Shown piece after piece: positions 6,520 to 24,963 of a DNA stretch of 64,000 bases. Every line of letters starts with the position of its first letter. Position 1 is the stretch's first letter. The position numbers and the translations under genes are program-made. Below the pieces are notes generated by a model. That model saw nothing but the letters and a program-made list of their open reading frames with translations. It had not been told where the DNA came from and did no database searches. The stretch spans positions 4,092,001-4,156,000 of the forward strand of contig NZ_CP013106.1 in assembly GCF_001431725.1 (NCBI RefSeq), written 5' to 3'. Source of the stretch: Halomonas huangheensis (GTDB lineage: Bacteria; Pseudomonadota; Gammaproteobacteria; Pseudomonadales; Halomonadaceae).

Positions 6520-7443
6520 CTACTGGGGCCTTTCCAGTGCTGCCAGGCGCAGCACCTCACAGAAGCCATGCAGCGCCGTGGTCGGCTGCATACTGGCATT
6601 CAGACACAGCCCCACCGAGCCGCCCTGCTGCTCGAACGCCAGGCTCAATTCCACCAGACTGCCGTCGTCCAGCGCTTCTGCCACCGCCTCGAAGGGCGCG
6701 ATCCAGATGGCATCGGTGTCCTGCACATAGCGTCGGCTGATCGGCAATGACAGGGTTTCCAGGCATGGGCTGGGCACGCTGATCGCATGACGCGCGCAGA
6801 AGCTGTCGACCTGCTGGCGCAACGTGGTGCGTTGCGGCGGTAGCGCCCAGGGGTAGTCGATCAGCGGTTCGGCACCTTGCAACGAGACTCCCGCCAGCGG
6901 ATGGGCAGCGCGCACCACCAGCCGCAATGATTCGTAGTAGAGATGCTCGAACGCCAGCTCACGGATCTCGCGTGCAGCGGTCATGCGCCCCACCACTATA
7001 TCGAGCTCCCCCGAGGCCAGTCGCGAGAGCAGAAAGGCACTGGTGCCGGTGACCACCTGGATGCTGACATCCCGTCCCAGGGGCGAGCTCTGCCAACGTT
7101 GGATGGCGGTGGGCAACAAGCGACTCTCGACGGTGGATAATGCACCGACTCGCAACCAACGCTGTCCATTATGCGCATCGGCCAGTGCCTCAACCCCCTC
7201 CTCCAGCGCACGCACTGCAGGCCCGGCATGCCGCAACAGGGTCAAGCCCGCCTGAGTAAGACTGACACCTTGAGCGGTGCGCTCGAAAAGCACCGCACCG
7301 ACATGTTCCTCAAGCTCGCGAATCGCCTTGGAAATCGCAGGCTGACTGATCGCCAGCGATTCGGCGGCACGCGCAAAGCTACGCCGCCTCGCCACCTCGA
7401 GAAAGGCATTGAGATGGCGCAGCTTGATGCGTTGGTCAAGCAT
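6520..7443 (-). CDS. pcaQ: LysR-family regulator PcaQ
   Basis: A 307-residue LysR protein. The N-terminal winged helix (MLDQRIKLRHLNAFLEVARRRS, then FARAAESLAISQPAISKAIRELE) is typical of PcaQ. The effector domain includes ELDIVVGRMT and DYPWALPPQRTTLRQQVDSF, both characteristic of that subfamily. PcaQ activates protocatechuate genes in response to ring-cleavage intermediates such as carboxymuconate. It stands directly upstream of pcaH in the same orientation, not divergent as in rhizobia, with the PcaQ box in the 154-bp gap. No strong leader precedes the ATG at 7443. Confidence 0.85.
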   Translation of the reverse strand: MLDQRIKLRHLNAFLEVARRRSFARAAESLAISQPAISKAIRELEEHVGAVLFERTAQGVSLTQAGLTLLRHAGPAVRALEEGVEALADAHNGQRWLRVGALSTVESRLLPTAIQRWQSSPLGRDVSIQVVTGTSAFLLSRLASGELDIVVGRMTAAREIRELAFEHLYYESLRLVVRAAHPLAGVSLQGAEPLIDYPWALPPQRTTLRQQVDSFCARHAISVPSPCLETLSLPISRRYVQDTDAIWIAPFEAVAEALDDGSLVELSLAFEQQGGSVGLCLNASMQPTTALHGFCEVLRLAALERPQ

Positions 7444-10656: not shown

Positions 10657-11460
10657 TCACTGGCCGGCATGGGCACGCGCGGTGCGCGCCTTCAACTCAC
10701 GCAGCACTTCGAGTTCGTGCGCATCGGGTTCCGGGGTCTGTTCGAGGTTGTCGGCAAAACGAATCTCCCACCCGGTGGCTTCCTGCACCTGCTCGCGGGT
10801 CACGCCGGGATGCAGCGAGACCACCGTCAGTTCGCGATCTTCGGGGTCAGGCTTCATCACACAAAGATCGCTAATGACCCGAGTCGGGCCGCGCCCGATG
10901 TTGGGCACGTTGTCGCGACCCTTGCCATCACGGCCGAAGCCCAGGGTGGTGATGAAGTCCACGTCACGCACGAAGGCACGCGGTGAGTGCTTGAGGGTGA
11001 TGAACACCTCACCGGCATTGGTGGCGATTTCAGGCGCACCGCCGCCGCCGGGCAAACGTACCTTGGGAGCCTTGTAATCGCCAATCAGGGTGGTGTTGAG
11101 GTTGCAGTAACGATCGATCTGCGCGGTGCCGAGGAAGCCGACATTGACCTTGCCGCCCTGCAGCCAGTAGCGAAACATCTCGGGGACCGACACCGTGGTC
11201 AACGCGGACTCGCAGAGTTCGCCATCCCCGATGGATAACGGCAGCACTTCCGGGCGCGTCTGCAGGGTGCCGGATTCATAGATCAGCACCACTTCAGGAG
11301 CGTGGGTCAGGCGCGCCAGATTCGCGGCCTCGGACGGCAGGCCGATACCCACAAAGCAGGTCATGCCGTTTTCCAGCGCCCGGGCGGCGGTGACGGTCAT
11401 CATCTCGGCAGAGCTGTATTCAGGAGAGCGATTTTCAAGAAAACTGCTTTCAAGGCTCAT
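10657..11460 (-). CDS. pcaJ: 3-oxoadipate CoA-transferase subunit B
   Basis: A 267-residue CoA-transferase family I beta subunit. It contains the glycine-rich loop RLPGGGGAPEIATNAGEVF and the segment IYESGTLQTRPEVLPLSIGDGEL, where the Glu is the likely CoA-ester carrier. Length and sequence fit the longer CatJ form of this enzyme rather than the about 213-residue Pseudomonas PcaJ. With PcaI it moves CoA from succinyl-CoA to beta-ketoadipate. Its ATG shares one base with the pcaI stop (TGATG), suggesting translational coupling. Confidence 0.9.
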   Translation of the reverse strand: MSLESSFLENRSPEYSSAEMMTVTAARALENGMTCFVGIGLPSEAANLARLTHAPEVVLIYESGTLQTRPEVLPLSIGDGELCESALTTVSVPEMFRYWLQGGKVNVGFLGTAQIDRYCNLNTTLIGDYKAPKVRLPGGGGAPEIATNAGEVFITLKHSPRAFVRDVDFITTLGFGRDGKGRDNVPNIGRGPTRVISDLCVMKPDPEDRELTVVSLHPGVTREQVQEATGWEIRFADNLEQTPEPDAHELEVLRELKARTARAHAGQ

Positions 11461-12278
11461 CAGGCATTCCCTCCGGTATTCATGATGTTGTCCTCGATCC
11501 AGCGCGTAAAGGCATCGCGGTCGCGGGAAATGCTGTCCCACTCCTTGTAGAAGCGGTTGTCACGCGGGTAGTAGCCATGGGCGTAGGATGGCAGCGAGCC
11601 CTTCTCGGCCACGGCAATGGCATCGATTGCCCAGCCCGGAATCACGCAGGCATTGGGATGGGCCTGCAGATCATCGACGATCTCCTCGACGGTCACGATG
11701 CTGTGCTTCGCGGCCAGTACCGCCTCCTTCTGCACGCCAACGATGCCCTCGACCAGCACATTGCCGGCACGATCGGCCTTCTGTGCGTGCACGATCGACA
11801 CATCCGGGCGCACCGAGGGCACCGCGGCCAGGCGCTCGCCGCTGAAGGGGCATTCGATGAAACGAATCTGGTCGTTGACACTGGGCAGCTCACTGCCGAC
11901 GTAACCACGCAGTACCGCCAGCGGTAAGCCAGCGGCACCGGCTTCGAAGGCACAGGCCATGGCGGCATGGCTGTGTTCGAGAATCTCGATCTGATGGGGC
12001 CAGCCCTTCTCGACGGCATCACGCAGACGATGCAGGGAGCCGACACCGGGATTGCCTCCCCAGGAGAAGATCACCTTCTTCGCACAGCCAGCACCGATCA
12101 TCTGGTCGTAGACCAGGTCAGGGGTCATGCGAATCAGGGTCAGGTCACGCCTGCGCTGACGGATGATCTCGTGCCCGGCGGCAACGGGAATCAGATGGGT
12201 AAAACCCTCCATGGCGACGGTGGCTCCGTCCTCGACGTAGCGCGCGACCGCGTCATGCAGGCTGAGAATCTCGGCCAT
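11460..12278 (-). CDS. pcaI: 3-oxoadipate CoA-transferase subunit A
   Basis: The 272-residue alpha subunit begins MAEILSLHDAVARYVEDGATVAMEGFTHLIP and includes FSWGGNPGVGSLHRLRDAVE, typical of CoA-transferase subunit A of the CatI/glutaconate type. It is the first gene of pcaIJFL; AGGCG precedes the ATG at 12278. The upstream 250 bp carry two tandem copies of the IclR-type operator. The product completes activation of beta-ketoadipate from either ring-cleavage branch. catI is an equally valid name. Confidence 0.9.
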   Translation of the reverse strand: MAEILSLHDAVARYVEDGATVAMEGFTHLIPVAAGHEIIRQRRRDLTLIRMTPDLVYDQMIGAGCAKKVIFSWGGNPGVGSLHRLRDAVEKGWPHQIEILEHSHAAMACAFEAGAAGLPLAVLRGYVGSELPSVNDQIRFIECPFSGERLAAVPSVRPDVSIVHAQKADRAGNVLVEGIVGVQKEAVLAAKHSIVTVEEIVDDLQAHPNACVIPGWAIDAIAVAEKGSLPSYAHGYYPRDNRFYKEWDSISRDRDAFTRWIEDNIMNTGGNA

Positions 12279-12397: not shown

Positions 12398-12433
12398 TGT
12401 TCGCTATGTGAACATAGGTTTGTGATACGAACA
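12398..12433. promoter_or_regulatory. Tandem IclR-type operator before pcaIJFL
   Basis: Two 17-bp sites start 19 bp apart: TGTTCG-CTATG-TGAACA (12398-12414) and GGTTTG-TGATA-CGAACA (12417-12433), about 120 bp before the pcaI start. They match the dyad at 13981 and the tandem sites at 21497 and 21640. PcaR/PcaU-type regulators bind GTTCG-containing repeats, and pcaR lies nearby. Confidence 0.75.
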
Positions 12434-12475
12434 AAATAATCCTGTGTTTGAGGCGCGTCAAATGCACAAACAACA

Positions 12476-12502
12476 GCGGGGGTGGCCCATTGCCACCCCC
12501 GC
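12476..12502 (-). terminator. Terminator of pcaB
   Basis: Perfect ten-base arms GCGGGGGTGG and CCACCCCCGC with a seven-base loop, about 30 bases past the pcaB stop. On the minus strand TGTTGTTTGTGC follows. It separates pcaB from the pcaIJFL promoter. Confidence 0.75.
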
Positions 12503-12532
12503 ATTCATGTTTAAACCATTATTTTCAGATAG

Positions 12533-13885
12533 TTAAAAAGAATCCAACCACTCGACGGCACGCTTGACCTGGGCCTCGCTGCTACCAAGGTATAAAGCGG
12601 GGTCGCTCGCTTTTTCCAACTCAGCCAACGAAACCCGCCCAGCAACATCGGGATATTGCTCGGCAAGCAGTCTCTCCAGCACCTGGCTGTAGGCCTCTGA
12701 ACTCTGCCGAGCCTGTTCGGAGGCCAGTGAGGCCAGCATCCTGGCCTTGTCCACTCCCAGTTGCGGTGCCAGCAAGCCTGCGACAGGCTCGGCCATGATC
12801 GCCCCTCCGGTAATCGCAAGGTTGGCGCGCATGCGCTCCGGAAACACTTCCAGACCTTCCAGCAGCTCGGCACTCAACTCCAGTGCGCCTTCCAGCAACA
12901 GGACCATTTCACTCAGCGGTGCCCACTCGGCATGCCATTCTCCCAAACCTCGCTCCAGTGGCTGCGCCATGGCGTTGATGATCACGCCTGTATGACCATG
13001 GATGCGCCTTGCCGCCGTACGAATGCGCGCACAGCGCACCGGGTTACGCTTGTGCGGCATGGATGACGACTCACCCATTCCCGGCGCTGAAGGCTCGCTG
13101 ACTTCCCCCACCTCCGTCTGGGTCAGCAGAGCGATATCCAGCGCCAGGCCATCAGCAGCGCCAGCGATGGCATCCACGGCAGTAGCCAATGCATGTACCG
13201 GTTGTCGATCGGTATGCCAAGGCAACACCGGCGTCGCCAGGCCCATACGCTGGGCAACATCATCCATCAACGCCAGGCCTTGCTCTCCCCAGCCGGAATG
13301 CACGCCAACGGCACCGCCGAACTGCACCGGCAGTCCCGCTGTACTCAGCGCTGCCAGACGCCGCCGTGCGCTCTCCAATCCCATGGCCCATTGTGCCACC
13401 TTGACGCCGAAGGCCATCGGCAGTGCCTGCTGCATCAGCGTGCGACCGACCATCGGCGTCTTCGAGTGGCAGCGCATCAACGCAATAGCCGACTCACGAC
13501 AGCGCAGCAATAACTCATCAATGCGCGCCAGACGTGGGGTCAGCAGGTGCATCAAGGCCGAATCGATCACGTCCTGGCTGGTCGCACCGAGGTGCCAGTA
13601 GCGCCGCAGCTCTTCAGGCAGTGTCGCACGCGCTTGTTTTACGAAGGGAATCGCCGCATTACCTCCGCTGGCGACACCGGCGGCGATGCGCTCGACATCG
13701 AATTCATGAGCCTCGAGAACTTCGCGCATCCGCTGACTCGTTCCGTCGGGCATATGACCGTGCTGCTCATGCGCCTCGGCAAGCGCCAGCTCAAAGGCCA
13801 GCATCGACTTCACCAGCGCTTCGTCACGGCAGGATTCGAGGGCAGCCTGACTCATGAAGGGGCGGCTCAACAGGGCTGAAGGCAT
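12533..13885 (-). CDS. pcaB: 3-carboxy-cis,cis-muconate cycloisomerase
   Basis: The 450-residue protein belongs to the fumarase/aspartase superfamily, with the signature GESSSMPHKRNP at residues 271-282 and HLGATSQDVIDSA near 98-110. Bacterial PcaB of this type forms gamma-carboxymuconolactone, the substrate of the PcaC domain of PcaL. ATG 13885 has GGAG nine bases upstream. It is transcribed alone, away from pcaR, ending at a strong terminator. A shared intergenic operator (13981-13997) probably controls both genes. Confidence 0.94.
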   Translation of the reverse strand: MPSALLSRPFMSQAALESCRDEALVKSMLAFELALAEAHEQHGHMPDGTSQRMREVLEAHEFDVERIAAGVASGGNAAIPFVKQARATLPEELRRYWHLGATSQDVIDSALMHLLTPRLARIDELLLRCRESAIALMRCHSKTPMVGRTLMQQALPMAFGVKVAQWAMGLESARRRLAALSTAGLPVQFGGAVGVHSGWGEQGLALMDDVAQRMGLATPVLPWHTDRQPVHALATAVDAIAGAADGLALDIALLTQTEVGEVSEPSAPGMGESSSMPHKRNPVRCARIRTAARRIHGHTGVIINAMAQPLERGLGEWHAEWAPLSEMVLLLEGALELSAELLEGLEVFPERMRANLAITGGAIMAEPVAGLLAPQLGVDKARMLASLASEQARQSSEAYSQVLERLLAEQYPDVAGRVSLAELEKASDPALYLGSSEAQVKRAVEWLDSF

Positions 13886-14191
13886 TGATGAATCTCCACA
13901 AGTCGTAATGCTGTTGGGCGAGTTGGAAGTAGAGCTATCGGGCAGTCTGGGAACAGGCTACTGGAAAAAAGTCGTACACATGTTCGCACTTCGAACAACT
14001 ATGCTAGATTACCCGATAGACTCCGGGCAAGCGCCCGGACTGATGTCCTTATCACTGATACCTCTATCACTGATGCTCTTATCAACACGGGGTCAGGGCA
14101 TGCACAGTACAGCGGTCACCAGCGACGAGAGGCAGGTCACCGCGATTGTTTCTGTGTTTCCCGACCCGCGTAAACCTTGCAGGATGCCAGT
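13886..14191. other. pcaB/pcaR divergent intergenic region
   Basis: This 306-bp region holds the divergent promoters of pcaB and pcaR. The only strong structure I see is the perfect operator dyad at 13981-13997, plus a degenerate right half (CGTACA) at 13973-13978 in the same 19-bp register as the other operators. No gene is evident. Confidence 0.6.
13981..13997. promoter_or_regulatory. Perfect IclR-type operator between pcaB and pcaR
   Basis: TGTTCG-CACTT-CGAACA is a perfect six-base dyad with a five-base spacer, 95 bp before the pcaB start and 195 bp before the pcaR start. It is the best example of the motif found at four promoters in this window, and fits pcaR autoregulation together with control of pcaB. 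Confidence 0.8.
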
Positions 14192-14980
14192 ATGGATACG
14201 GCCCAACAGGATGCCTTGAGCCCCGATGATCGCGACTTTGTGACCGCACTGGCCAGCGGTCTGGATGTCATCCTCGCCTTCGACGACAGCCACCCACGCA
14301 TGACACTCAGCGAAGTGGCGTCGCGTACCGGCATGAATCGCGCCCGGGCCAGACGCTTTCTGCTGACCTTGCATGCGCTGGGCTATGTGCGCAAGGACCA
14401 GCGATACTTCGAACTCGCCCCTCGGGTACTACAGCTCGGTTATGCATTTCTCTCGGCCAACAATTATCGAAGTGTCATCCAGCAGGTACTGGAGGACATT
14501 ACCGCCGAATCAGGGGAATCCTCATCGCTCGGCGTGCTCGATGGCAATGACATTACCTATGTCGCGCGTTCAGCTTCTCGCCAGCGACTACTGGCCATCA
14601 CCCTCTCCGTAGGCACGAGACTACCCGCGGCCTACACCTCCATGGGCCGTGTACTGCTGGCCCAGTTCAGCGATGCTGAATTGGACACATGGCTTGAGGG
14701 TGTGCAGTTGGAAGGCCACACCGACAAGTCGATCACTGACCCGGTGGAGCTGAAGAAGGCCATCCTGGAAGTGCGCCAGCAAGGCTATGCCATCGTTGAT
14801 CAGGAACTGGATTCCGGTCTGCGTTCATTGGCGGTGCCATCCTTCGACGCCCATGGTCAACTGATCGGGGCCATCAACATCAGTACCAATGCCGCTCGCG
14901 TCAAGATCGACACCCTGCTGCGTCAGTATCTGCCGATGTTGCAGGACAAGGCGCGCCAGATTCGTGCCCATGTCAGCTAA
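14192..14980 (+). CDS. pcaR: IclR-family regulator PcaR/PcaU type
   Basis: A 262-residue IclR protein. The N-terminal winged helix (about 10-75) includes LSEVASRTGMNRARARRFLLTLHALGYV. The C-terminal effector domain includes YVARSASRQRLLAITLSVGTRLPAAYTSMGRVLLA, the signature of the PcaR/PcaU/PobR group. These activators sense beta-ketoadipate (PcaR) or protocatechuate (PcaU). The ATG at 14192 follows AGGA; a TTG at 14177 is less likely. It diverges from pcaB and is the best candidate to bind the TGTTCG-N5-CGAACA sites. The effector cannot be told from sequence. Confidence 0.88.
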   Translation: MDTAQQDALSPDDRDFVTALASGLDVILAFDDSHPRMTLSEVASRTGMNRARARRFLLTLHALGYVRKDQRYFELAPRVLQLGYAFLSANNYRSVIQQVLEDITAESGESSSLGVLDGNDITYVARSASRQRLLAITLSVGTRLPAAYTSMGRVLLAQFSDAELDTWLEGVQLEGHTDKSITDPVELKKAILEVRQQGYAIVDQELDSGLRSLAVPSFDAHGQLIGAINISTNAARVKIDTLLRQYLPMLQDKARQIRAHVS

Positions 14981-15048
14981 CGACGCCCTGAAGAGCCAGT
15001 GTCTACTGAATAGCCGATGTCTGCTGAAGAAGCACAGGAGCTGATAGC

Positions 15049-16008
15049 GTGCTCGATATCCTGACGATCACCGCTCCCATCTTCCTGTTGATTGGCATCG
15101 GTTATCTGGCTCGTTGGCGCGGCTTGCTGTCGCCCGTACAGCTCTCGGGAGTCGGCACCTTCGTGCTGTATTTCTCGCTACCCGCTCTGGTCATCAAGGC
15201 GCTGACCCAGAGCCCGCTTGAAGACGTGATCAATGCTCACTTCCTGCTCGCCTATGGCATGGGATCCTTGATTACTCTAGCCCTGGTTCTGTACGCCGCG
15301 CGCCACTTCATGCGAAAACCGCTTGGCGAGGCAGCAATCCAGGCTCTGGGCATGTCGGCATCCAACAGCGGCTTTATCGGTTACCCGGTGGCAGCGCTGG
15401 TGCTCGGCCCTGTCGCTGCGGGCAAGTTTCTGGCGATGTGCATGATGGTCGAGAATCTGCTGATCATTCCTGGCGCGTTGATTCTGGCCGAAGCGGGTCA
15501 GCAGCGCGATGTCAGCGCCGGCGTCCTGGTACGCCACACATTACAGCGCCTGGCACGTAATCCGATAATGATCGGCCTGGCCTTTGGGCTTACCGTGGCC
15601 ATCAGTGGTATATCCCTACCATCGCCGATCGAGAGGGTCATCGAGATGCTGGCTTCCGCCTCGGCTCCTGCTGCGCTGTTTGTCATCGGCGGGACGCTGT
15701 ATGGGCTCAAGCTCGGCGGTATGTGGCGCGATATCGTCACCATCGCCAGTGGCAAGCTACTGCTCCATCCGCTACTGATCATCAGTTGCTTTCTCGCACT
15801 GACACTAGTGGTGCCGGATCTCGACGTCATGTTGCTGGCCGGTGCTCTATTGTTTGCCAGCTGTCCGATGATCAGTGTCTACCCTCTGCTGGGGGCGCGC
15901 TTCAACATGGAGGGTGTTGGCTCCGCGGCACTGATGGTCAGCACCCTGGGCAGCTTCATCACATTGAGTGCAGCGATCTGGTTGGTCAACCAACACCTGC
16001 TCAACTGA
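15049..16008 (+). CDS. AEC-family (auxin efflux carrier type) transporter
   Basis: A 319-residue membrane protein of about ten helices in two similar halves. The N-terminus (LDILTITAPIFLLIGIGYLARWRGLL) and GMSASNSGFIGYPVAALVLG are AEC family features. The GTG start is preceded by CAGGAG. It begins 68 bp after pcaR and could be co-transcribed. Family members move organic acids such as malonate or malate. An aromatic or dicarboxylic acid substrate is plausible from the context but unproven. Confidence 0.85.
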   Translation: MLDILTITAPIFLLIGIGYLARWRGLLSPVQLSGVGTFVLYFSLPALVIKALTQSPLEDVINAHFLLAYGMGSLITLALVLYAARHFMRKPLGEAAIQALGMSASNSGFIGYPVAALVLGPVAAGKFLAMCMMVENLLIIPGALILAEAGQQRDVSAGVLVRHTLQRLARNPIMIGLAFGLTVAISGISLPSPIERVIEMLASASAPAALFVIGGTLYGLKLGGMWRDIVTIASGKLLLHPLLIISCFLALTLVVPDLDVMLLAGALLFASCPMISVYPLLGARFNMEGVGSAALMVSTLGSFITLSAAIWLVNQHLLN

Positions 16009-16168
16009 CAACGAGCGCCACTCAGCAGAACACTCAATATAGATTCACCTGATGCCCACAATCTTCATCTCACCAACATAAAGATGAACACAGAAAGATG
16101 CATTGCTAACGACTTTACCTTACGCTGCGAATTGCATTTCCTGTCACCGCACCATGCTTCGGAGCCTT

Positions 16169-17110
16169 ATGCCCAGTTCTCGCTCTCCTGCCCCCGAAGC
16201 GACTCCGATTCAAGATTCAGCGGCCTCCCTTCCGCCCCCCCAAATCGTCAATCGCGACCGTCCTCTCAAGGGCATCGGTTACATGCTGGCGGCGGGACTG
16301 CTGTTCACCATGCTCGACACCGGCGTCAAGACGCTGGCTCAGGACTATTCACCGGTACAGGTCGTCTGGGCGCGCTATATCGGCCATGTGGTGATTCTGC
16401 TCGGCTACTTCCTGTGGCTGGGAAGAAGTGCTGGCGGAGCCATGCTCAAGACCACCTCTCTGACCGGTCAATGCCTGCGTGGTCTACTGCTGCTCGGCGC
16501 CAGCACCTTCGCCTACCTGGCCTTCCGCAGCCTGCCGTTGCTGCAGGTCTACGTCATCAATTTCAGCTCACCGCTGCTGGTCACGCTACTGGCCATCCCG
16601 CTACTCAAGGAACGTGTCAGTTGGCGTCAGGCGCTGGCGATTGTAGTCGGATTTGCTGGTGTGGTGATCTGTGTCGGCCCGGTGGATTGGCGCAGCGAGC
16701 CCGCCATCCTGCTGCCCTTCGGCCTGACGCTATGCTTTGCGCTCTACCAGTTGACCACCCGACGCTTCGGGCGCGAGGATCATCCGCTGACCTCGCTGTT
16801 CTACGCTGGGTTGGCAGGCGCCATCGTCAGTAGTCTGGTAGTGCCTGCGTTCTGGTCGAGCATCGACCCACGGCATCTGCCGCTGTTCATGTTTGTCGGC
16901 CTGATGGGAGCAGGAAGCCAGCTAACACTGATTCTGGCGATGCGCTATGCGCCTGCATCACTGGTATCGCCCTTTCTCTATCTGCAGATCATCTGGGCAG
17001 CACTGTTCGGATTCGTGTTCTTCGGCGACATTCCGCGCTCTGAAACCTGGATTGGAGCCGCGCTGATCAGCGTGGCAGGCGTGGTGTTAGCGGTGAGCAA
17101 GCGGCGCTAA
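16169..17110 (+). CDS. DMT-superfamily (EamA) transporter
   Basis: A 313-residue, ten-helix protein with two EamA repeats (about residues 35-165 and 180-310). The first starts GIGYMLAAGLLFTMLDTGVKTLAQ and ends in GFAGVVICVGP. The second ends in GAALISVAGVVLAVSKRR. The ATG at 16169 is chosen for GGAG five bases upstream; the frame is open further upstream. Metabolite export is usual for the family. It lies between the AEC gene and the convergent Gfo/Idh gene, with no direct evidence for a substrate. Confidence 0.85.
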   Translation: MPSSRSPAPEATPIQDSAASLPPPQIVNRDRPLKGIGYMLAAGLLFTMLDTGVKTLAQDYSPVQVVWARYIGHVVILLGYFLWLGRSAGGAMLKTTSLTGQCLRGLLLLGASTFAYLAFRSLPLLQVYVINFSSPLLVTLLAIPLLKERVSWRQALAIVVGFAGVVICVGPVDWRSEPAILLPFGLTLCFALYQLTTRRFGREDHPLTSLFYAGLAGAIVSSLVVPAFWSSIDPRHLPLFMFVGLMGAGSQLTLILAMRYAPASLVSPFLYLQIIWAALFGFVFFGDIPRSETWIGAALISVAGVVLAVSKRR

Positions 17111-17143
17111 CCTGCCAGCGACACCTGACACCAGCACCAGCCG

Positions 17144-18193
17144 TCAGTCGACCAGCATATCGCTGACCAGAACCCGACCACCCTCACCAGCAGCCCGGCT
17201 CACCGCCAGCGTCGCGGCAAGCGTCATCACGCCTTCTCGGGCGCTGACGACAGGCGCGGCCTCGCCACGTGCCACAGCAATGAAATGTGCCAACTGCTCG
17301 GGATAACAGTGAGTGCGCGGCGGCTGTAGCCTCTCCTTGAGCAACGCGCCCTTCCAATCCCCTCCACGGTCATGCCGCCAGAGCTCCATGCCCGGCACAC
17401 TCAAGCTCGCCTGACGCCCGCCAATCACATAGCAGTCATTGGGATAATGTGGAAAGGAAGGAGACTGTCCGGATGCCACGTCCCACATGAAAGGGGATGG
17501 CACTGCATCACTGCCGAGGAAGGTACCGATGGCTCCGTTGGCGAAGTTGATGACCACGGCAAAACTATCTTCAACCTCGAAACCACGAGCCCTGGAGCCC
17601 GTCGTCGCCTGAACACTTTCTACTTCGCCGCACAGGAAGCGCAGGATATCGATCTCGTGAATCAGGTTGATCAGGATCGGGCCGCCTCCCGCTTCACGAC
17701 GCCAGGCCTGGTCGAAGTAGTCATCGTTCTTGCGGCATAGCCACATGCCATTGACGGCAATCAGATCGCCGAGCTCACCGGCCTGAATCGCCCGCCGAGC
17801 TTCCACCATGTCCGGGCTATGGCGACGGTGATGCCCCACCAGCATGGGCACTCCTGAGGCCTCACTGGCTTCGGCGAGCTCCCGGCCTGCGGCAAGAGTA
17901 TCAGCAATCGGCTTTTCCATCAGTGTCGGCAGGCCGCGCTCGATACAGGCAAGACCCGCCTCGCGGTGCAGCGCGTTGGGCAGCGCCACAATCACCGCAT
18001 CCAGTTCCACACTATCGAGCATGGCGTGATAGTCAGCGAAGAAGGCGACACCGGGCTCTGTCGCCAGGGCCCGGCCTTCCTCGGTAACATCGGCAATCGC
18101 CGCCAGTTGCGCATCGGCCGATGCCTGTACTAGAGCGATATGCTCACGACCGATGATACCCGCGCCCATCACGCCAATACGTAGCAGTGACAT
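17144..18193 (-). CDS. Gfo/Idh/MocA-family NAD(P)-dependent oxidoreductase
   Basis: This 349-residue protein has an N-terminal Rossmann fold with GVMGAGIIGREH, then the family motif MEKPIADTLAAGRE containing the conserved Lys of EKP. The C-terminal alpha/beta domain contains GGGPILINLIHEIDILRFLCGEVE, whose His is the usual catalytic residue. It is the last gene of the quiC operon, 33 bp after aroQ, with AGGAAATC before its ATG. The context suggests oxidation of quinate, shikimate or a related cyclitol acid. The family also oxidises inositols and sugars, so the substrate is open. Confidence 0.85.
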   Translation of the reverse strand: MSLLRIGVMGAGIIGREHIALVQASADAQLAAIADVTEEGRALATEPGVAFFADYHAMLDSVELDAVIVALPNALHREAGLACIERGLPTLMEKPIADTLAAGRELAEASEASGVPMLVGHHRRHSPDMVEARRAIQAGELGDLIAVNGMWLCRKNDDYFDQAWRREAGGGPILINLIHEIDILRFLCGEVESVQATTGSRARGFEVEDSFAVVINFANGAIGTFLGSDAVPSPFMWDVASGQSPSFPHYPNDCYVIGGRQASLSVPGMELWRHDRGGDWKGALLKERLQPPRTHCYPEQLAHFIAVARGEAAPVVSAREGVMTLAATLAVSRAAGEGGRVLVSDMLVD

Positions 18194-18226
18194 TGTTGAT
18201 TTCCTGTAATCAGCGTTTTTCCCGAA

Positions 18227-18667
18227 TCAGTTTTCCCGAATCAGTGCGTCCAATGCCGCATGGTAGCCCTGACTACCTAGACCCGCGATAACACCATCGG
18301 CACGCAGCGAGACATAGGAGTGATGACGGAAGCTCTCGCGCTTGTGGACATTGGAAAGATGCACCTCGATGACCTTGCCGTCGAAGGCGTTGAGCGCATC
18401 GAGAATCGCCACCGAGGTATGGGTATAGGCCGCCGGATTGATGATGATCGCGTCGCTGCCATCGAGGCGCGCCGCATGAATGGCATCGATCAACTCCCCC
18501 TCGTGATTGCTCTGCAGGGTGTTGATATCCCATTCCTCGAGCAAGGCATGCTCACGCAGGGCATTATCGATATCGGCCAGCGTCTGATGGCCGTATATCT
18601 CCGGCTGACGAGTTCCCAGCAGGTTGAGATTCGGTCCGTGCAATACCAGAACCTTGCCCTTGCTCAT
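18227..18667 (-). CDS. aroQ: Type II 3-dehydroquinate dehydratase
   Basis: This 146-residue protein has the full active site of type II dehydroquinases: [17 protein letters not shown] with catalytic Tyr25, [16 protein letters not shown], and [17 protein letters not shown]. It interconverts 3-dehydroquinate and 3-dehydroshikimate. Its ATG shares one base with the stop of the upstream dehydrogenase gene (TGATG), after a GGAGA leader. Placement between quiC-aroE and a Gfo/Idh gene points to the catabolic direction. A separate biosynthetic dehydroquinase may exist elsewhere. Confidence 0.95.
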
Positions 18668-19530
18668 CACAGATTCTCCTTCAACAATTCTCGCCGGTAG
18701 TGGGCAAACAAGGCCATTGCCTGTTCTTCGGCAGCGGCACGCTTGCTGTCATCCTCACAGAAGTGCTTGAAGGCGTCCACGCCCTGGAACACGAACAGGC
18801 TGACTCCACTGATCACCGAGGCCCCCACCGCTTTCGCTGCGGCAATGAATTCCGTCACCGCCGGCACATAGACGGCATCGAAAATCCAGTGATGGGCCTG
18901 CACCAGTTCGGGTGGCAAGGGGCAGCCAGGACTCTTTTCATGACCAACTGGCGTGCAGTTGATCAGGCCATCGCAGCGCGGGGCCTCGTCGACGAGCTGC
19001 TGTGTCGGCAAGGCTCGAGCCTTGAACCCGAAACGCTGCAGTTCGGCCGCCAGTTGCTTTGCCCGGTCATGATCGAGATCCACCAGCAATACCTCGCTGG
19101 CCCCCAACTGGGCGATGCCAAAGGCTACCGCCTTGCCGACACCACCGGTGCCGATCAACAGCACTCTACCGGGCGCACGTTCACCGAGCGTTGCCCGATA
19201 ACCACGCATGAAGCCGGTAAAGTCGGTGTTCTCGGCGACCACACCATCGGCCTCGAAGACCAGCGTATTGGCGGACCCAACCATGCGGGCACCATCACTG
19301 ACACGGCCCGCCAGTCCGACCGCCTGCTCCTTGAAGGGATAGGTGACATTGACGCCGCGATAGCCCGCCGCCATGACATCACGCACGGCGGCCTCGAGAG
19401 ATTCGATGGGCTGCTCATTGGCGTCGAACAGGTCATAGCTGGCTTCGACACCAATCAGCTTACCGAGCCGTACATGCAGGTCTGGTGAACTGGAATTGAG
19501 AATCGCCTTACCGATCAGTCCAAGTTTCAT
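18667..19530 (-). CDS. aroE: Quinate/shikimate dehydrogenase, probably NAD-dependent
   Basis: A 287-residue member of the AroE family. Catalytic Lys67 lies in [10 protein letters not shown] and Asp103 in ENTDFTGF. The substrate Ser region is NSSSP (12-16) and the dinucleotide loop GTGGVGKA begins at 127. The second Rossmann strand ends in [11 protein letters not shown], with Asp residues where NADP-specific AroE has NRT. Acidic residues there mark NAD-dependent quinate/shikimate dehydrogenases such as QsuD. With its operon partners, this suggests oxidation of quinate/shikimate rather than biosynthesis. GGGAGAG precedes the ATG. Confidence 0.85.
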
Positions 19531-19557
19531 CGCATCTCTCCCGATTCAGTTATCGAC

Positions 19558-21402
19558 TCAGTGCCGAGCAGATTGCGCCGCTAGACGGATACCGGCGTTG
19601 GCTTCGCCATAGCGTTGGTAGTTGCCACGCCGCTCGACGATCTCGAAGAAGAAGCGTCCAGAGAAGGTATCGGTGTAGGCATGCAGAAAGTCACCATCAT
19701 CGCGACGGTCAAAGAGGATATTGCGTGAGCGCAACCCCTCGACAAACTCGGGGTCCAGATCGAAGCGAGCTTCCAGATCATCGTAATAGTTGGCGGGGAT
19801 ACGCAGCAGCGGTAACCCTCTGGCCTGTAACTCGTCCACCGTGGCGTGGATGTCATCACTGGCGAAGGCAATCTGCTGCACCCCTCCCCGGAACTCGCTC
19901 AGGAAGCGTCCTGGAGAAGTGTCCCGGGCCTGAGAAACGGTCAGCGGAATACGGATGCTGCGATCAGGGCTATTGACGGCCTGACTGACCATCATTCCAT
20001 GGGGATCAACTATCTCGTGCTCTGTCTCGGCCTCGAAGCCGAGAACGGTGTGATAATAGAGCTGCCAACCCAGCAACTGAGTGGCCGGCAACACATAGGA
20101 AAGATGGTCGATGCGCTGCAACCCCGCCTCGTCACGACTGGCCTGGTCGAACAGTTCGAAGTCAGTCCGCCATTGATGGTCCTTCGCCGACGGCTCATCG
20201 ACCAGATAGATCAAGCTACCCTCGACACCGCGCAATGCCGGAATTTCCATCTCGCCTTCGGCAACCTGGCCGCGATAGACCGGAGCCTTGTAGGCACGCG
20301 CACGGGCCAACGCCGTATCGACATCATCGACTCGGAAGCCCACCGCACATACTGAGGTACCGTGCAGTAGACGGAAGGTGTGGGCAAAGCTGTCGGTTTC
20401 GAAGTTGAGCACCAGATGGATATCACCCTGCTTCCATAGTTCGACATTCTTCGAGCGATGGCGACCAACATGTCGAAAGCCCAGCGCACCGATGAACTCG
20501 CCAAGCGGCGCGGCACTGTCCTCATCAAGAGTGAACTCGATGAAGTGTATCCCGCGATAATCACTCGCGGCAGGAAGCGCGTCAGCCCAATGCCCCTCCG
20601 GCACCAGGTTCTCGAGATAGATCAGTGAACGCATGCCATCCATGGCGGTGACATCTGCCGGCGCAGCACGAAAGGCGTCGCTGAATATTTCGTGGGACAG
20701 TGGTCCGCGATAGCCAGTCTTCGCCAGCGCTGACATGAAGCTCTTGAGTGGCAACCTGCCCTGACCAGGAAAACAGCGAAAATGGCGGCTCCACTGCAAC
20801 ACGTCCATATCCAGCAAAGGCGCATCCGCGACCTGCACAAAGAAGATCTTCTCGACGGGAATATCGGCAATCGCCGCAGGGTCATGGCCACGCGAGAGAA
20901 TATGAAAGCTATCGAGCACCAGGCCCAACGCCGGGTGGTCGGCTCGCCTGACCACATCCCAGGCATCACGGTAATCGGAGATATGCCGCCCCCAGGCAAG
21001 CGCCTCATACCCGATGCGAAGACCTCGAGCGGCGGCCCGCTCTGCCAGCTCATACAAGTCGGCAACCATCTGATCACGATCATCGAGTGCCTGGGGCGAA
21101 ACATTGCTGCACACCAACATGAAGTCGGTGCCCAGTTCCTGCATGACATCAAACTTGCGCTCGGCACGTTGCAGATTACGTGTCCGAGCAGGCTCTGGCA
21201 TGGCCTCGAAGTCTCGGAAAGGCTGGAAGGCGACGATTGCCAGACCCAGTCGCTCACAGAGCAGCCGCACATCGCCGGGCGAGCCATCGAAGGAAATCAG
21301 ATCATTCTCGAATATCTCGACGCCTTCAAAACCTGCGCGAGCAATGGCTTCAAGCTTGGAGCGCAGGTCGCCACTCAAACACACCGTCGCAATAGCGCGC
21401 AT
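19558..21402 (-). CDS. quiC: 3-dehydroshikimate dehydratase, two-domain QuiC/QsuB type
   Basis: This 614-residue protein has two parts. Residues 1-275 form a sugar-phosphate isomerase-like TIM barrel with metal-ligand candidates in GYEALAWG, VLDSFHILSRG and PLSHEIFSD. Residues 285-614 form a vicinal-oxygen-chelate/HPPD-like domain ending in GRFFFEIVERRGNYQRYGEAN. This fusion makes protocatechuate from 3-dehydroshikimate. ATG 21400-21402 has GGAGGA; the frame upstream to 21444 is not needed. It heads a quiC-aroE-aroQ-Gfo/Idh operon. Automated tools often mislabel it as 4-hydroxyphenylpyruvate dioxygenase. Confidence 0.9.
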   Translation of the reverse strand: MRAIATVCLSGDLRSKLEAIARAGFEGVEIFENDLISFDGSPGDVRLLCERLGLAIVAFQPFRDFEAMPEPARTRNLQRAERKFDVMQELGTDFMLVCSNVSPQALDDRDQMVADLYELAERAAARGLRIGYEALAWGRHISDYRDAWDVVRRADHPALGLVLDSFHILSRGHDPAAIADIPVEKIFFVQVADAPLLDMDVLQWSRHFRCFPGQGRLPLKSFMSALAKTGYRGPLSHEIFSDAFRAAPADVTAMDGMRSLIYLENLVPEGHWADALPAASDYRGIHFIEFTLDEDSAAPLGEFIGALGFRHVGRHRSKNVELWKQGDIHLVLNFETDSFAHTFRLLHGTSVCAVGFRVDDVDTALARARAYKAPVYRGQVAEGEMEIPALRGVEGSLIYLVDEPSAKDHQWRTDFELFDQASRDEAGLQRIDHLSYVLPATQLLGWQLYYHTVLGFEAETEHEIVDPHGMMVSQAVNSPDRSIRIPLTVSQARDTSPGRFLSEFRGGVQQIAFASDDIHATVDELQARGLPLLRIPANYYDDLEARFDLDPEFVEGLRSRNILFDRRDDGDFLHAYTDTFSGRFFFEIVERRGNYQRYGEANAGIRLAAQSARH

Positions 21403-21496
21403 ACTATCCTCCAGGCGCTGGCCCCGCGCATGCCGCAGAGACACGCCAGTTTGTCATGGGTCCCGTATATAGGGCATTTGCCGCCACAGACACAAA

Positions 21497-21532
21497 TGTT
21501 CGTATAGCGGCCTTGTGTTCGCATTATGCACG
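21497..21532. promoter_or_regulatory. Tandem IclR-type operator before quiC
   Basis: Two TGTTCG half-sites, at 21497 and 21516, lie exactly 19 bp apart, each followed at the expected spacing by a degenerate right half (CGGCCT, TGCACG). They are about 95 bp before the quiC start. The left halves are identical to those at pcaB and pcaI. Confidence 0.65.
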
Positions 21533-21639
21533 ACAAACAGGGCGTGATGGCAAGCCTACCCTTTCAATACCCTTATGCTTCACGACCATGGTAGAAGATG
21601 GGGCGACGAAGCATTGACACACTGCTGACGCCAACCTAA

Positions 21640-21675
21640 TGTTCGCATAAAGCACTTTAGTTCGATAGGCGAACT
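21640..21675. promoter_or_regulatory. Tandem IclR-type operator before the TTT transporter
   Basis: TGTTCG at 21640 with degenerate right half AGCACT, then the perfect dyad AGTTCG-ATAGG-CGAACT at 21659-21675. The starts are again 19 bp apart. It lies 158 bp before the receptor start codon, matching the arrangement at quiC and pcaI. Confidence 0.7.
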
Positions 21676-21832: not shown

Positions 21833-22861
21833 ATGTTTCATTCCGTCTTGAAGACGCTGGCCATACCGATGGCAGCGACACTCAGTACCATGGCTATGAG
21901 TAGTCAGGCACTTGCCGAATATCCTGAGCGCAACATCACCGGCACGATTCAGTGGGGCGCCGGCGGCGCCACCGATAATGTTGCACGTAGCCTGACACCG
22001 CATGTCGAGGAAGAGCTCGGCACCAGCGTGATACTGACCAATCGTCCAGGCGGCACCGGCGTGATCGGTATGAACTACGTCATGACCCAGCGCCCTGATG
22101 GTTACAGCCTGCTCTACGGCGCCGAGAACCCCCAGCTCTATCGCTTGATGGGACTGGCCGATTTCGGCTACGACGACATGCATACCATCAATATCATCGG
22201 CCAGGGACTGGTGGTCATTGCCGCCCCCGCGGATAGCCCGTTCGACAACCTGTCCGAACTGCTCGAATACGCCCACGAGCATCCGGGTGAGTTGCGTATG
22301 GGGGGTACCGGAGCCGGTGGGCTGCCAAGCACCGTGCACGCGATGATCAACTCGGTTGATGATCTCGACGTACGCACCGTGACGTTCGGTGGCGACGGCC
22401 CCGGCATCACTGCCATGCTTGGCGATCACATCGACTTCATGCCACTCAGTCTCGCTGCCGCTGGCGAACAAATCCGCAGCGGCAAGATGAAGGGACTGGC
22501 GGTACTGACCAGCGAGGAAATCGAGGCTCTGCCCGGAGTCCCCCCGATCACCGAGGCACTGCCGGACATCGACGCCTTCCTGCCCTGGGGCCCGTTCTGG
22601 GGTGTCTTCGTCCGCGAGGAAACACCGGATGAGGTCAAGCAGCAACTCGAGGATGCTTACCGCAACGCCGTGGACAACGAGCAGTTCCAGACGTTTCTGG
22701 ACAACTTCGGTGCCGAACCGCTCAATCTGAGCGGTGAAGAAGCCCAGCAGTATCTCGACAACTGGCAGTCAGTGACCGGATGGTCGATGTTCGAGGCGGG
22801 CAGCGTCGAAGTCTCTCCAGAAGAACTGGGGATTCCGCGTCCCGGTAAAAGCGCTGAGTAA
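21833..22861 (+). CDS. tctC: Tripartite tricarboxylate transporter substrate-binding protein
   Basis: A 342-residue periplasmic receptor of the Bug/TctC family. A signal peptide ends near SSQALA (26-28). The mature protein starts EYPERNITGTIQWGAGGATDNVAR, the family carboxylate-binding segment, and has NRPGGTGVIGMNYV. GGAGG precedes the ATG. It heads a receptor-TctB-TctA operon divergent from the quiC operon and shares its operator type. I infer quinate, shikimate or another hydroaromatic or aromatic acid as ligand; TTT systems are also known for citrate, terephthalate and adipate. Confidence 0.88.
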   Translation: MFHSVLKTLAIPMAATLSTMAMSSQALAEYPERNITGTIQWGAGGATDNVARSLTPHVEEELGTSVILTNRPGGTGVIGMNYVMTQRPDGYSLLYGAENPQLYRLMGLADFGYDDMHTINIIGQGLVVIAAPADSPFDNLSELLEYAHEHPGELRMGGTGAGGLPSTVHAMINSVDDLDVRTVTFGGDGPGITAMLGDHIDFMPLSLAAAGEQIRSGKMKGLAVLTSEEIEALPGVPPITEALPDIDAFLPWGPFWGVFVREETPDEVKQQLEDAYRNAVDNEQFQTFLDNFGAEPLNLSGEEAQQYLDNWQSVTGWSMFEAGSVEVSPEELGIPRPGKSAE

Positions 22862-22952
22862 ACCGTGATGAAGGTCGGCGCTGCCCTCAGCGCCGGCTGG
22901 ATACTCACAGGCACCTGAGCCGAGCATCGCTCGGCCATCCTGGAGTTGAGCA

Positions 22953-23429
22953 ATGAAAGACAGATACGAACGCGTCCAGCCTGGCGAGAAGGTCTTCGAC
23001 TGGCTGCTGCTGCTTTTCAGCGGTGGTCTGCTCTACGAAGCATGGCGAGTCGACGGCATACCGTCGCTGAACTCACCCGGCACGTTTCCCGTCGGCCTGG
23101 CCTTGATCATGATTGCCGCCTGCCTGGTGATTCTGTTCAGCCACCGGCGTAAACGTCGTGCCCCCGAGTTGACCACCGCAGGTGATGAACTCAAGGCCTT
23201 TGTCGCCGAGCACTTCCAGCCACATATCATCGTGTTCTCGGTAATCTCGATCATCTACCTGGTTGCCATATCGTGGCTGAGCTTCTATCTCAGCACCTTT
23301 ATCTTCCTGGCCGCGATGTTCATCTATTACCGAGGCGGCAAAGTACTGAGTTCGCTGATCATTTCCAGCGTATCCATCGCCATCATCTACGTCCTGTTCA
23401 CGCTGGTTTTCCGCGTCTATCTGCCGTGA
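22953..23429 (+). CDS. tctB: Tripartite tricarboxylate transporter small membrane subunit
   Basis: A 158-residue protein with about four hydrophobic helices. The first is FDWLLLLFSGGLLYEAWRV; the last two lie in the C-terminal third (FYLSTFIFLAAMFIYYRGG, then a helix ending FTLVFRVYLP). Length and topology are those of TctB. GGAG precedes its ATG. It lies between tctC and tctA and would complete the importer. Confidence 0.85.
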   Translation: MKDRYERVQPGEKVFDWLLLLFSGGLLYEAWRVDGIPSLNSPGTFPVGLALIMIAACLVILFSHRRKRRAPELTTAGDELKAFVAEHFQPHIIVFSVISIIYLVAISWLSFYLSTFIFLAAMFIYYRGGKVLSSLIISSVSIAIIYVLFTLVFRVYLP

Positions 23430-23457
23430 ACCCCAGCAGTGAACTCGGAGCCCTGCC

Positions 23458-24963
23458 ATGACTGACACTCTCCACTATTTCCTGATGGCCTGGATCGATC
23501 CGCACCTGCTGTTGCTGACCGCTCTAGGCACACTGGGCGGCATCTATATCGGAGCCATTCCTGGCCTGTCCGTGACCATGGCCGTGTCCATCCTGATCTC
23601 CTTTACCTTCGCCTGGGACATCAATGATGCACTGGCGCTGATGGTGGGTATCTATGTAGGTGGGGTCTACGGCGGTTCACGAACCGCGATCCTGCTCAAT
23701 ATCCCCGGCGCCCCCTCGGCGGTGACCACTGCCTTCGATGGCTACCCACTGGCCCAGCGTGGTGAAGCGGGGCGCGCCATCGGCCTGAGCACTGTGATGT
23801 CGGTCATCGGCGGCCTCCTCGGCACCTTGATTCTGGCCGGAACCGCGCCATATCTGGCCGACATGGCGCTGGAGTTTGCGCCTCGCGACTACTTCCTGAT
23901 TGCCGCACTCGGTCTGCTGCTGGTCAGCACCCTATCCGGCAAGTCATTGGCTAGAGGTATATTTTCTGTCGCACTGGGCTCCGCGATTGGCCTGGTCGGT
24001 CTCGACCAGGTGACGGCACAGCCACGCCTGACCATGGACAACATGCAGTTGTTGGGTGGCATTCATTATGTGGTGGTAATGATTGGACTGTTTGGCGTCG
24101 CCGAAGCCTTCTACCAGTTGCATAACCTCAACAAGGTGCCGATCAAGCAGAAGGTCGACAAGATCATTCCGCCCCTCAAGCTGGTGTTGAAGTTCCTGCC
24201 ACTATCAATGCGCTCGGGAGTCATCGGGGTCGTCGTCGGTGCACTTCCGGGAACCGGTGGCGATATCGCCTCGCTGTTCGCCTATGACCACGCCAAGCGC
24301 AGCGTCAAGAATCCCCGGGTTCCTTTCGGAGAAGGTGCCTACGAGGGGCTGGTAGCACCGGAAACCGCCAACAATGCGGCGGTAGGTGGTGCCTACGTAC
24401 CGATGCTGACCCTCGGCATGCCGGGTGATGCGGTCACGGCGGTGATCATCGGTGCACTGGTCATCCACGGCCTCAATCCCGGCCCGATGCTGATGATCGA
24501 GACACCGCATATCTTCTGGTTCACCGTCGGCAACCTGATGCTGGCCAACATCTTCCTGCTGATCTTCGGCCTCACCGGCATCAAGATCTTCACCAAGGTC
24601 GTCGAGGTTCCCAAGGCGATCCTCATCCCCTTGATCCTCGTGCTGTGTGTGGTCGGCACCTACTCGATCAACAGCAATATGACCGAGGTGTACTGGATGC
24701 TTGGCTTTGGCCTGCTTGGCTATTGGCTCAAGGTGTTCGGCTTCCAGATGGGTCCGATCATCCTCGGGGTAATCCTCGGCCCATTGCTCGACAAGACCTG
24801 GCGCCAGGCGATGTCCTCGGTCGGTGACAGCGGCAGCGCATTTCTTCTCGAACTGGTCAGCAATCCGCTATCGCTGGTGCTGACTAGCGTCATCGTGCTG
24901 GTATTGATCGGTCAGACACCACTTCCGGCCTGGCTACGCAGCAAATTGAGCCGTCAATCCTGA
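23458..24963 (+). CDS. tctA: Tripartite tricarboxylate transporter large membrane subunit
   Basis: A 501-residue polytopic protein of the TctA family. The glycine-rich signature GVYGGSRTAILLNIPGAPSA, followed by VTTAFDGYP, is at residues 65-90, and the second repeat has GALPGTGGDIASLFAYDH near 260. It forms the proton- or sodium-coupled channel part of the importer. GGAG precedes the ATG, 28 bp after tctB. The next gene (HAD) starts 65 bp later and may be read through. Confidence 0.92.
   Translation: MTDTLHYFLMAWIDPHLLLLTALGTLGGIYIGAIPGLSVTMAVSILISFTFAWDINDALALMVGIYVGGVYGGSRTAILLNIPGAPSAVTTAFDGYPLAQRGEAGRAIGLSTVMSVIGGLLGTLILAGTAPYLADMALEFAPRDYFLIAALGLLLVSTLSGKSLARGIFSVALGSAIGLVGLDQVTAQPRLTMDNMQLLGGIHYVVVMIGLFGVAEAFYQLHNLNKVPIKQKVDKIIPPLKLVLKFLPLSMRSGVIGVVVGALPGTGGDIASLFAYDHAKRSVKNPRVPFGEGAYEGLVAPETANNAAVGGAYVPMLTLGMPGDAVTAVIIGALVIHGLNPGPMLMIETPHIFWFTVGNLMLANIFLLIFGLTGIKIFTKVVEVPKAILIPLILVLCVVGTYSINSNMTEVYWMLGFGLLGYWLKVFGFQMGPIILGVILGPLLDKTWRQAMSSVGDSGSAFLLELVSNPLSLVLTSVIVLVLIGQTPLPAWLRSKLSRQS

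Follow-up and report, generated by a model that had tools for sequence, protein, structure and literature searches.

A paired operator at promoters of aromatic-acid breakdown and uptake genes in Halomonas huangheensis, probably recognized by PcaR

The 64,000-nucleotide stretch of DNA analysed here (positions 4092001-4156000 of the single-contig Halomonas huangheensis genome of 4,757,486 bases; hereafter the window) carries genes for protocatechuate breakdown (pca), for 3-dehydroshikimate dehydratase (quiC) and for a tripartite tricarboxylate-type (TTT) transporter (tctCBA). Three of its promoters share a 36-bp operator consisting of two inverted repeats of the type TGTTCG-N5-CGAACA, termed dyads in the following, that start 19 bp apart. 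The evidence for this as a real and conserved operator of a regulon is strong, its kind is an ordinary one, and at pcaI and tctC it is predicted to serve repression. As far as can be judged from sequence comparison, the regulon very probably belongs to PcaR, the IclR-family regulator encoded in the same gene cluster.

Half-sites, pairing and chance level

An earlier note on this stretch had described a perfect dyad between pcaB and pcaR and tandem pairs of dyads before pcaI, quiC and tctC. On direct inspection all of its site coordinates proved correct, and in all three tandem cases the start-to-start spacing is 19 bp. The pcaI operator (12398-12433, minus strand) reads TGTTCG-N5-CAAACC-N2-TGTTCA-N5-CGAACA in gene orientation, and its dyads at 12398 and 12417 carry one and two mismatches, respectively. 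The dyads of the tctC operator (21640-21675, plus strand) start at 21640 and 21659, with three and two mismatches, while those of the tandem quiC operator (21497-21532, minus strand) start at 21497 and 21516 and have three mismatches each, both left halves being perfect and both right halves degenerate. Between pcaB and pcaR, the perfect dyad is a direct match at 13981-13997. The degenerate half that had been noticed there at the same offset was found as well: a right half, CGTACA (13973-13978), stands in the -19 register as a third half-site, with no left half to complete the dyad. CGCACA occupies the same place in three relatives (L039, L049 and L053), in all of which the 17-mer of the perfect dyad is identical.

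The dyads fit the type TGTYCRYW3RYGRACA with six-base halves and a 5-bp gap, and the consensus of 46 sites from relatives agrees with it; the W3 centre is not retained in every site. Going by these sequences, the operator is better described as a series of up to four half-sites, at least three of which are retained per promoter. All four boxes are present at pcaI, boxes 1, 3 and 4 plus a conserved weak box 2 at tctC, boxes 2-4 at quiC and at most of the dctP promoters introduced below, and three boxes at pcaB.

Chance similarity is the first alternative to be weighed, and for the single dyad it fits the data. With up to three mismatches, 24 dyads occur in the window versus 25.8 expected, and with up to two mismatches 118 occur in the whole genome versus 129 for a reversed control. 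As these counts are at chance level in window and genome, a single dyad alone is no evidence. For the paired sites, on the other hand, chance is refuted by the pairing statistics given here and by the conservation, genome-wide ranking, co-occurrence in the family and dctP sites treated below, and we consider it practically eliminated. In the window, three dyad pairs are spaced by 19 bp, and between 10 and 40 bp no other spacing occurs. In 150 windows simulated with a first-order Markov model, the mean was 0.0067 pairs at 19 bp (largest count 1) and the highest count at any single spacing between 17 and 40 bp was 2. The exact direct repeat TGTTCG-N13-TGTTCG is present only once in the genome, at quiC. 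When two mismatches are allowed it occurs 429 times versus 279 in the reversed control, and loose half-site pairing alone is thus unspecific.

Conservation, genome scan and co-occurrence with PcaR

Conservation of the sites extends to many Halomonadaceae, where they mostly neighbour beta-ketoadipate, quinate or 4-hydroxybenzoate genes. Of 15 fetched loci that encode a PcaR relative, ten reach across the sequence upstream of pcaI. The pcaI tandem pair is spaced by 19 bp in nine of these ten relatives and by 20 bp in one (L048). A close tctC is present in 30 of 151 family genomes, own genome included; among the 29 relatives the tctC site is found 21 times at 19 bp and once at 20 bp (L079). Where quiC lies next to tctC, the quiC site occurs in 15 of 20 relatives.

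The genome-wide matrix scan proposed in the earlier note was carried out with a sequence-only model (R1) built from 46 sites of 36 bp, all from relatives and none from the own genome (9 pcaI, 20 tctC, 13 quiC and 4 other promoters divergent from pcaR). Apart from the own genome, training left out L071 (judged to be the same genome as L039), the two sites in 20-bp register (tctC of L079 and pcaI of L048), the degenerate quiC site of L081, and the pcaB/pcaR and other single dyads. At E<=10, with 150 of 584 first-look candidates scored, the top three matches in the H. huangheensis genome are tctC (27.0 bits, E 2e-5), pcaI (25.7 bits, E 5e-5) and quiC (20.5 bits, E 0.0024). Rank 4 is a new place at genome positions 4019318-4019346 (17.9 bits, E 0.016). 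The one remaining match overlaps the tctC site in shifted register.

The new site is a three-box operator upstream of dctP-dctQ-dctM, encoding a TRAP transporter, which lies outside the window (genome 4018190-4019346; L145, L147 and L148). The neighbours are the gene for PobA (TIGR02360, 692.6 bits versus a cut-off of 538.7) and that for an AraC-type regulator. Promoters of the dctP type were absent from R1 training, and yet a three-box site stands upstream of dctP in 27 of 29 relatives; the survey covered 30 loci, own included, out of 63 genomes with a dctP match. In the 28 loci that have the site, box 1 is missing in 25 and box 4 in three (L156, L160 and L176). The lowest matrix score of a dctP site is 2.4, and 300 random pieces of 260 bp reach at most -4.2. 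The DctPQM system beside pobA is probably an importer of 4-hydroxybenzoate under PcaR.

Across the family, R1 matches at E<=0.05 occur in 56 of 101 genomes. Tallied by hand from the listings, a site is present in 55 of the 57 genomes with PcaR versus one of the 44 without; when the own genome and the 16 genomes that supplied tctC/quiC training sites are removed, the figures are 38 of 40 versus one of 44. The earlier note had seen PcaR as the coordinator of quinate/shikimate entry, a transporter and the shared lower pathway, and this predicted role is supported by the scan with relatives' sites only and by the co-occurrence with PcaR. One genome, G010, was initially counted as PcaR-negative and taken as a counterexample, i.e. 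sites without PcaR. It was dropped as such upon re-inspection: a PcaR gene broken into two reading frames lies close to the cluster, and neither the tctC nor the quiC operator of this genome is damaged (L131/L132, L185). Its gene for a beta-keto-acid cleavage enzyme (BKACE) also looks split, pointing at sequencing errors rather than at a natural pcaR mutant.

Among the matches listed, training sites from 16 genomes included and one row per site kept (other-strand rows omitted), 116 of the 132 distinct sites are no more than 15 kb away from pcaR, tctC or dctP. The 16 distant sites among these matches were fetched in 15 stretches. Six are located directly before pcaI, one before pcaB, one before quiC and three before a BKACE gene. 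The latter three belong to genus g11 (L185, L187 and L188), where the site resides between a gene for a DASS-type transporter and the BKACE gene on the same strand, directly before BKACE. The L187 protein is scored as 3-oxoadipate:acetyl-CoA acetyltransferase with 491 (cut-off 350); those of L185 and L188 were judged by gene order and similarity of the open reading frames. BKACE in g11 may be a further, PcaR-controlled route out of beta-ketoadipate. A salicylate monooxygenase is encoded nearby.

A number of observations weigh against a common PcaR operator at all these promoters or reduce the force of the counts. The tctC site is lacking in seven of the 29 relatives, all of which have aroE and not quiC beside tctC (a weak remnant is kept in L089, L092 and L093), and the quiC site is absent in five of the 20 relatives with quiC beside tctC. 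Two relatives have no dctP site (L150 and L177). With the 36-bp matrix, only low scores are obtained for the perfect pcaB/pcaR dyad (6.2 and 3.7 versus 32.5-41.4); a seemingly unrelated match next to one IclR paralogue (L004) has a similar score, 5.1. Two PcaR genomes, G016 and G017, have no site at E<=0.05, and G002 has a weak site and no PcaR match. Fisher values overstate the association because the genomes of one family are not independent; furthermore, the 84 genomes that remain after removal may still include named training genomes (those for pcaI and other TTT sites), and quiC and tctC training sites share the same intergenic regions. G010 is the only PcaR-negative genome that was re-inspected, and counted as negative it changes the figures to 54 of 56 versus two of 45. 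Finally, five of the 16 distant matches among those listed are found at other genes: between genes for benzoylformate decarboxylase and an aldehyde dehydrogenase (L189), before ABC-transporter genes (L183 and L186), before a TTT operon with a nearby IclR gene whose product is 30% identical to PcaR (L190), and at a place without evident link to its neighbours (L191, in G002).

Outside the family, a class-wide scan (25 candidates per genome, strict filters) returned a site in one of 273 other genomes; the same scan even lost the own quiC site and thus does not show absence elsewhere. In the distant genome G321 the site is again situated between pcaR and pcaF.

The regulator, promoter placement and mode of action

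On the minus strand of the window the gene order is pcaH/G, pcaQ, pcaDC, pcaF, pcaJ, pcaI and pcaB. The pcaR gene is divergent from pcaB, and beyond it follow aroQ, aroE and quiC, again on the minus strand, with tctCBA divergent from quiC. Several gene names are based on context and best match, with model scores below equivalog cut-offs. This applies to the pcaI-like gene for a CoA-transferase subunit, the first of pcaIJ-F-DC (11460-12278, minus strand; CoA_trans domain, TIGR02429 below cut-off), to pcaB (12533-13885, minus strand; 3-carboxy-cis,cis-muconate cycloisomerase family) and to quiC (19558-21444, minus strand; NF042435, 763.8 bits, cut-off 1200). The TTT genes tctC-tctB-tctA (21833-24963, plus strand) match PF03401, PF07331 and PF01970. 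The proteins encoded by pcaI and pcaJ (10657-12278) are long, with 272 and 294 amino acids, and make up a divergent CoA-transferase pair: PcaI scores only 41.9 with the PcaI model (cut-off 128.5), and no NCBIfam model is matched by PcaJ at E<=1e-20. The C-terminal half of QuiC resembles 4-hydroxyphenylpyruvate dioxygenase (TIGR01263 over residues 298-616, below cut-off).

PcaR itself (14177-14980, plus strand; ATG at 14192) has IclR HTH and IclR_C domains and is the only protein of the genome to pass the cut-off of TIGR02431, the PcaR/PcaU/PobR model (295.1 bits versus 284.75). Its closest counterpart among the 15 fetched loci is that of Halomonas cupida (85% identity), and the solved structures closest to it in sequence are 2ia2 and 8eju/8ejv; 8eju/8ejv bear the name of a Pca-regulon regulator. 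PcaR is the presumed binder of the sites. In principle, they could be read by another IclR-family protein, as nine further proteins of the genome match TIGR02431 below its cut-off and as the half-site is common to several IclR groups in the survey PMC8222616. Such a reading is very unlikely: the perfect dyad precedes pcaR itself, the sites co-occur with PcaR and appear between pcaR and pcaF even in G321, and in the seven of nine paralogue neighbourhoods that were scored the best matches range from -10.8 to 5.1, the 5.1 match lacking the box pattern.

The placement of the operators relative to predicted promoters bears on what PcaR may do there. At pcaI, a -35 box TTGACG (12456-12461, minus strand) is followed after a 17-bp spacer by the -10 box TATTTT (12433-12438, minus strand), whose final base is also where the operator starts. 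TTGAC[GT] or TTGCCA is found at -28/-29 from the operator in all ten sequences, and in the relatives a -10-like hexamer ends 0-1 bp inside the operator; automatic pairing picked a different pair in L053 and a hexamer unlike TA...T in L047. At tctC, the -35 box is TTGACA (21614-21619, plus strand; TTGACA in 22 of 23 sequences with site and TTGACT in one), and the -10 box TAATGT (21637-21642, plus strand) overlaps the first three bases of the operator. TA...T at N17 occurs in all 23 sequences and ends 0-3 bp inside the operator. In the case of quiC, the promoter scan places the -10 box CATAAT (21523-21528, minus strand) inside the first dyad, 19 bp downstream of TTGCCA (21548-21553), which would explain the degenerate first box. 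Of 15 sequences analysed, 13 have CATAAT 19 bp after TTGNCA or TTGCTT; it is absent in L073, L081 and a 16th sequence, L072. The conserved 19-bp spacer (13/15) is unusually long for a sigma-70 promoter. A possible -10 box of pcaB, TAGCAT (14001-14006, minus strand), ends 3 bp before the operator and has TTGCCC 18 bp upstream (14025-14030). This pair was picked by the promoter scan in the window and in L039 and other pairs in L049 and L053, rendering the pcaB promoter less certain.

An operator position suited to activation was not found at these predicted promoters: the operators of pcaI and tctC extend from the -10 box downstream and that of quiC overlaps the -10 box. PcaR of Pseudomonas putida binds at -35/-10 and activates pcaIJ, and PcaU and PobR of Acinetobacter are likewise activators; the A. 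baylyi PcaU operator is in activator position, whereas the operator here lies at the start site. Such regulators respond to protocatechuate or beta-ketoadipate. The family resemblance to PcaR/PcaU/PobR therefore speaks for a PcaR that binds these operators but activates transcription, and imperfect -10 boxes (TATTTT at pcaI, TAATGT at tctC) as well as the 19-bp spacer at quiC can go with promoters that need help. Activation is nevertheless rather unlikely. The -35 boxes of pcaI and tctC are perfect or near-perfect and stand 17 bp (18 bp in L039) from a TA...T-like sequence, and an activator occupying the stretch that begins at the -10 box and includes the presumed start would be in the way of RNA polymerase. 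With an operator that extends from the -10 box across the presumed start site, repression is the likelier mode at pcaI and tctC, where we predict it with reasonable confidence.

Since the presumed mRNA would begin with the repeats, they might instead act as an RNA hairpin (attenuator) in the transcript. The outer boxes can indeed pair at pcaI (z -2.07) and tctC (z -1.73). The quiC site does no better than shuffles (z 0.23), much of it would go untranscribed with the -10 box inside it, and the conserved form of tctC box 2 does not pair with box 1, leaving the hairpin extremely improbable.

We therefore return to PcaR as a DNA-binding regulator, an explanation that we hold with high confidence as a whole. 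PcaR would bind the 36-bp site TGTTCG-N5-CGAACA-N2-TGTTCG-N5-CGAACA, which contains up to four inverted half-sites, probably in the form of two adjacent dimers spaced by about two helical turns. The predicted regulon comprises pcaIJ-F-DC, pcaB, pcaR itself, quiC with the downstream shikimate genes, tctCBA and the pobA-side DctPQM TRAP transporter. PcaR would repress pcaI and tctC, and probably also pcaB, until released by a pathway intermediate, protocatechuate or beta-ketoadipate. More tentatively, within a family best known for activators the PcaR branch of Halomonadaceae may be a wide repressor of beta-ketoadipate supply that uses a four-half-site module over or near the start site of each entry point, with strength set by the dropped half-site. 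The entry points would then be, equally tentatively, quinate/shikimate, the TTT importer, 4-hydroxybenzoate import via TRAP, pcaI, pcaB and, in g11, also BKACE. Ring cleavage may be under a different regulator. The gene for LysR-type PcaQ (window 6520-7443; above its own cut-off) adjoins pcaGH, and no match to the PcaR matrix lies near pcaQ/pcaGH among the 20 best of the window, suggesting that pcaGH may be controlled by PcaQ alone.

Comparison with known systems

A literature search returned no work on PcaR regulation in Halomonadaceae, as judged from search results rather than full texts, and the main text of the IclR survey by Suvorova and Gelfand (2021, PMC8222616) does not mention Halomonas. 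What is added here is a fifth target, the pobA-side TRAP transporter, together with targets across the family and an operator position from which repression is predicted. For the TTT system beside quiC a role in the uptake of quinate/shikimate-type acids is likely, and for the TRAP system beside pobA one in that of 4-hydroxybenzoate-type acids. A change of PcaR-type regulators from activation to repression within Halomonadaceae could be tested cleanly in this regulon, which could also supply a defined set of inducible promoters for halophilic hosts.

The 19-bp register itself is not new, as tandem IclR sites have been described in PMC8222616: palindromic sites with centres 18-22 nt apart are reported there for 94 orthologous groups and three-box sites for 32 groups. 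The spacing found here, 19 bp at three promoters and in relatives, falls within this range. The same survey describes an IclR subgroup with TGT-11-ACA sites in which aromatic-acid genes are over-represented, and it gives motifs with the same half-site for PcaU and PcaR. According to its Table 1 and text, PcaU from Acinetobacter baylyi has the operator TTTGTTCGATWATCGMACAMA plus an external direct half-site. It shares with the operator described here TGTTCG / CGNACA halves, a 5-bp gap, an extra half-site and protocatechuate genes as targets. It differs in that two full dyads at 19 bp are present in some promoters here and in that the gap is not ATWAT. The "PcaR" of Burkholderia is, according to PMC3572157, of the LysR type and hence a different protein of the same name. 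For PcaR from Pseudomonas putida, Table 1 of PMC8222616 lists the motif WWWRKTCGATWATCGSAYRRW; family and pca targets are the same as here, and half-sites and gap are similar. Unlike that of P. putida PcaR, the regulon predicted for H. huangheensis extends to quiC and to the TTT and TRAP transporters.

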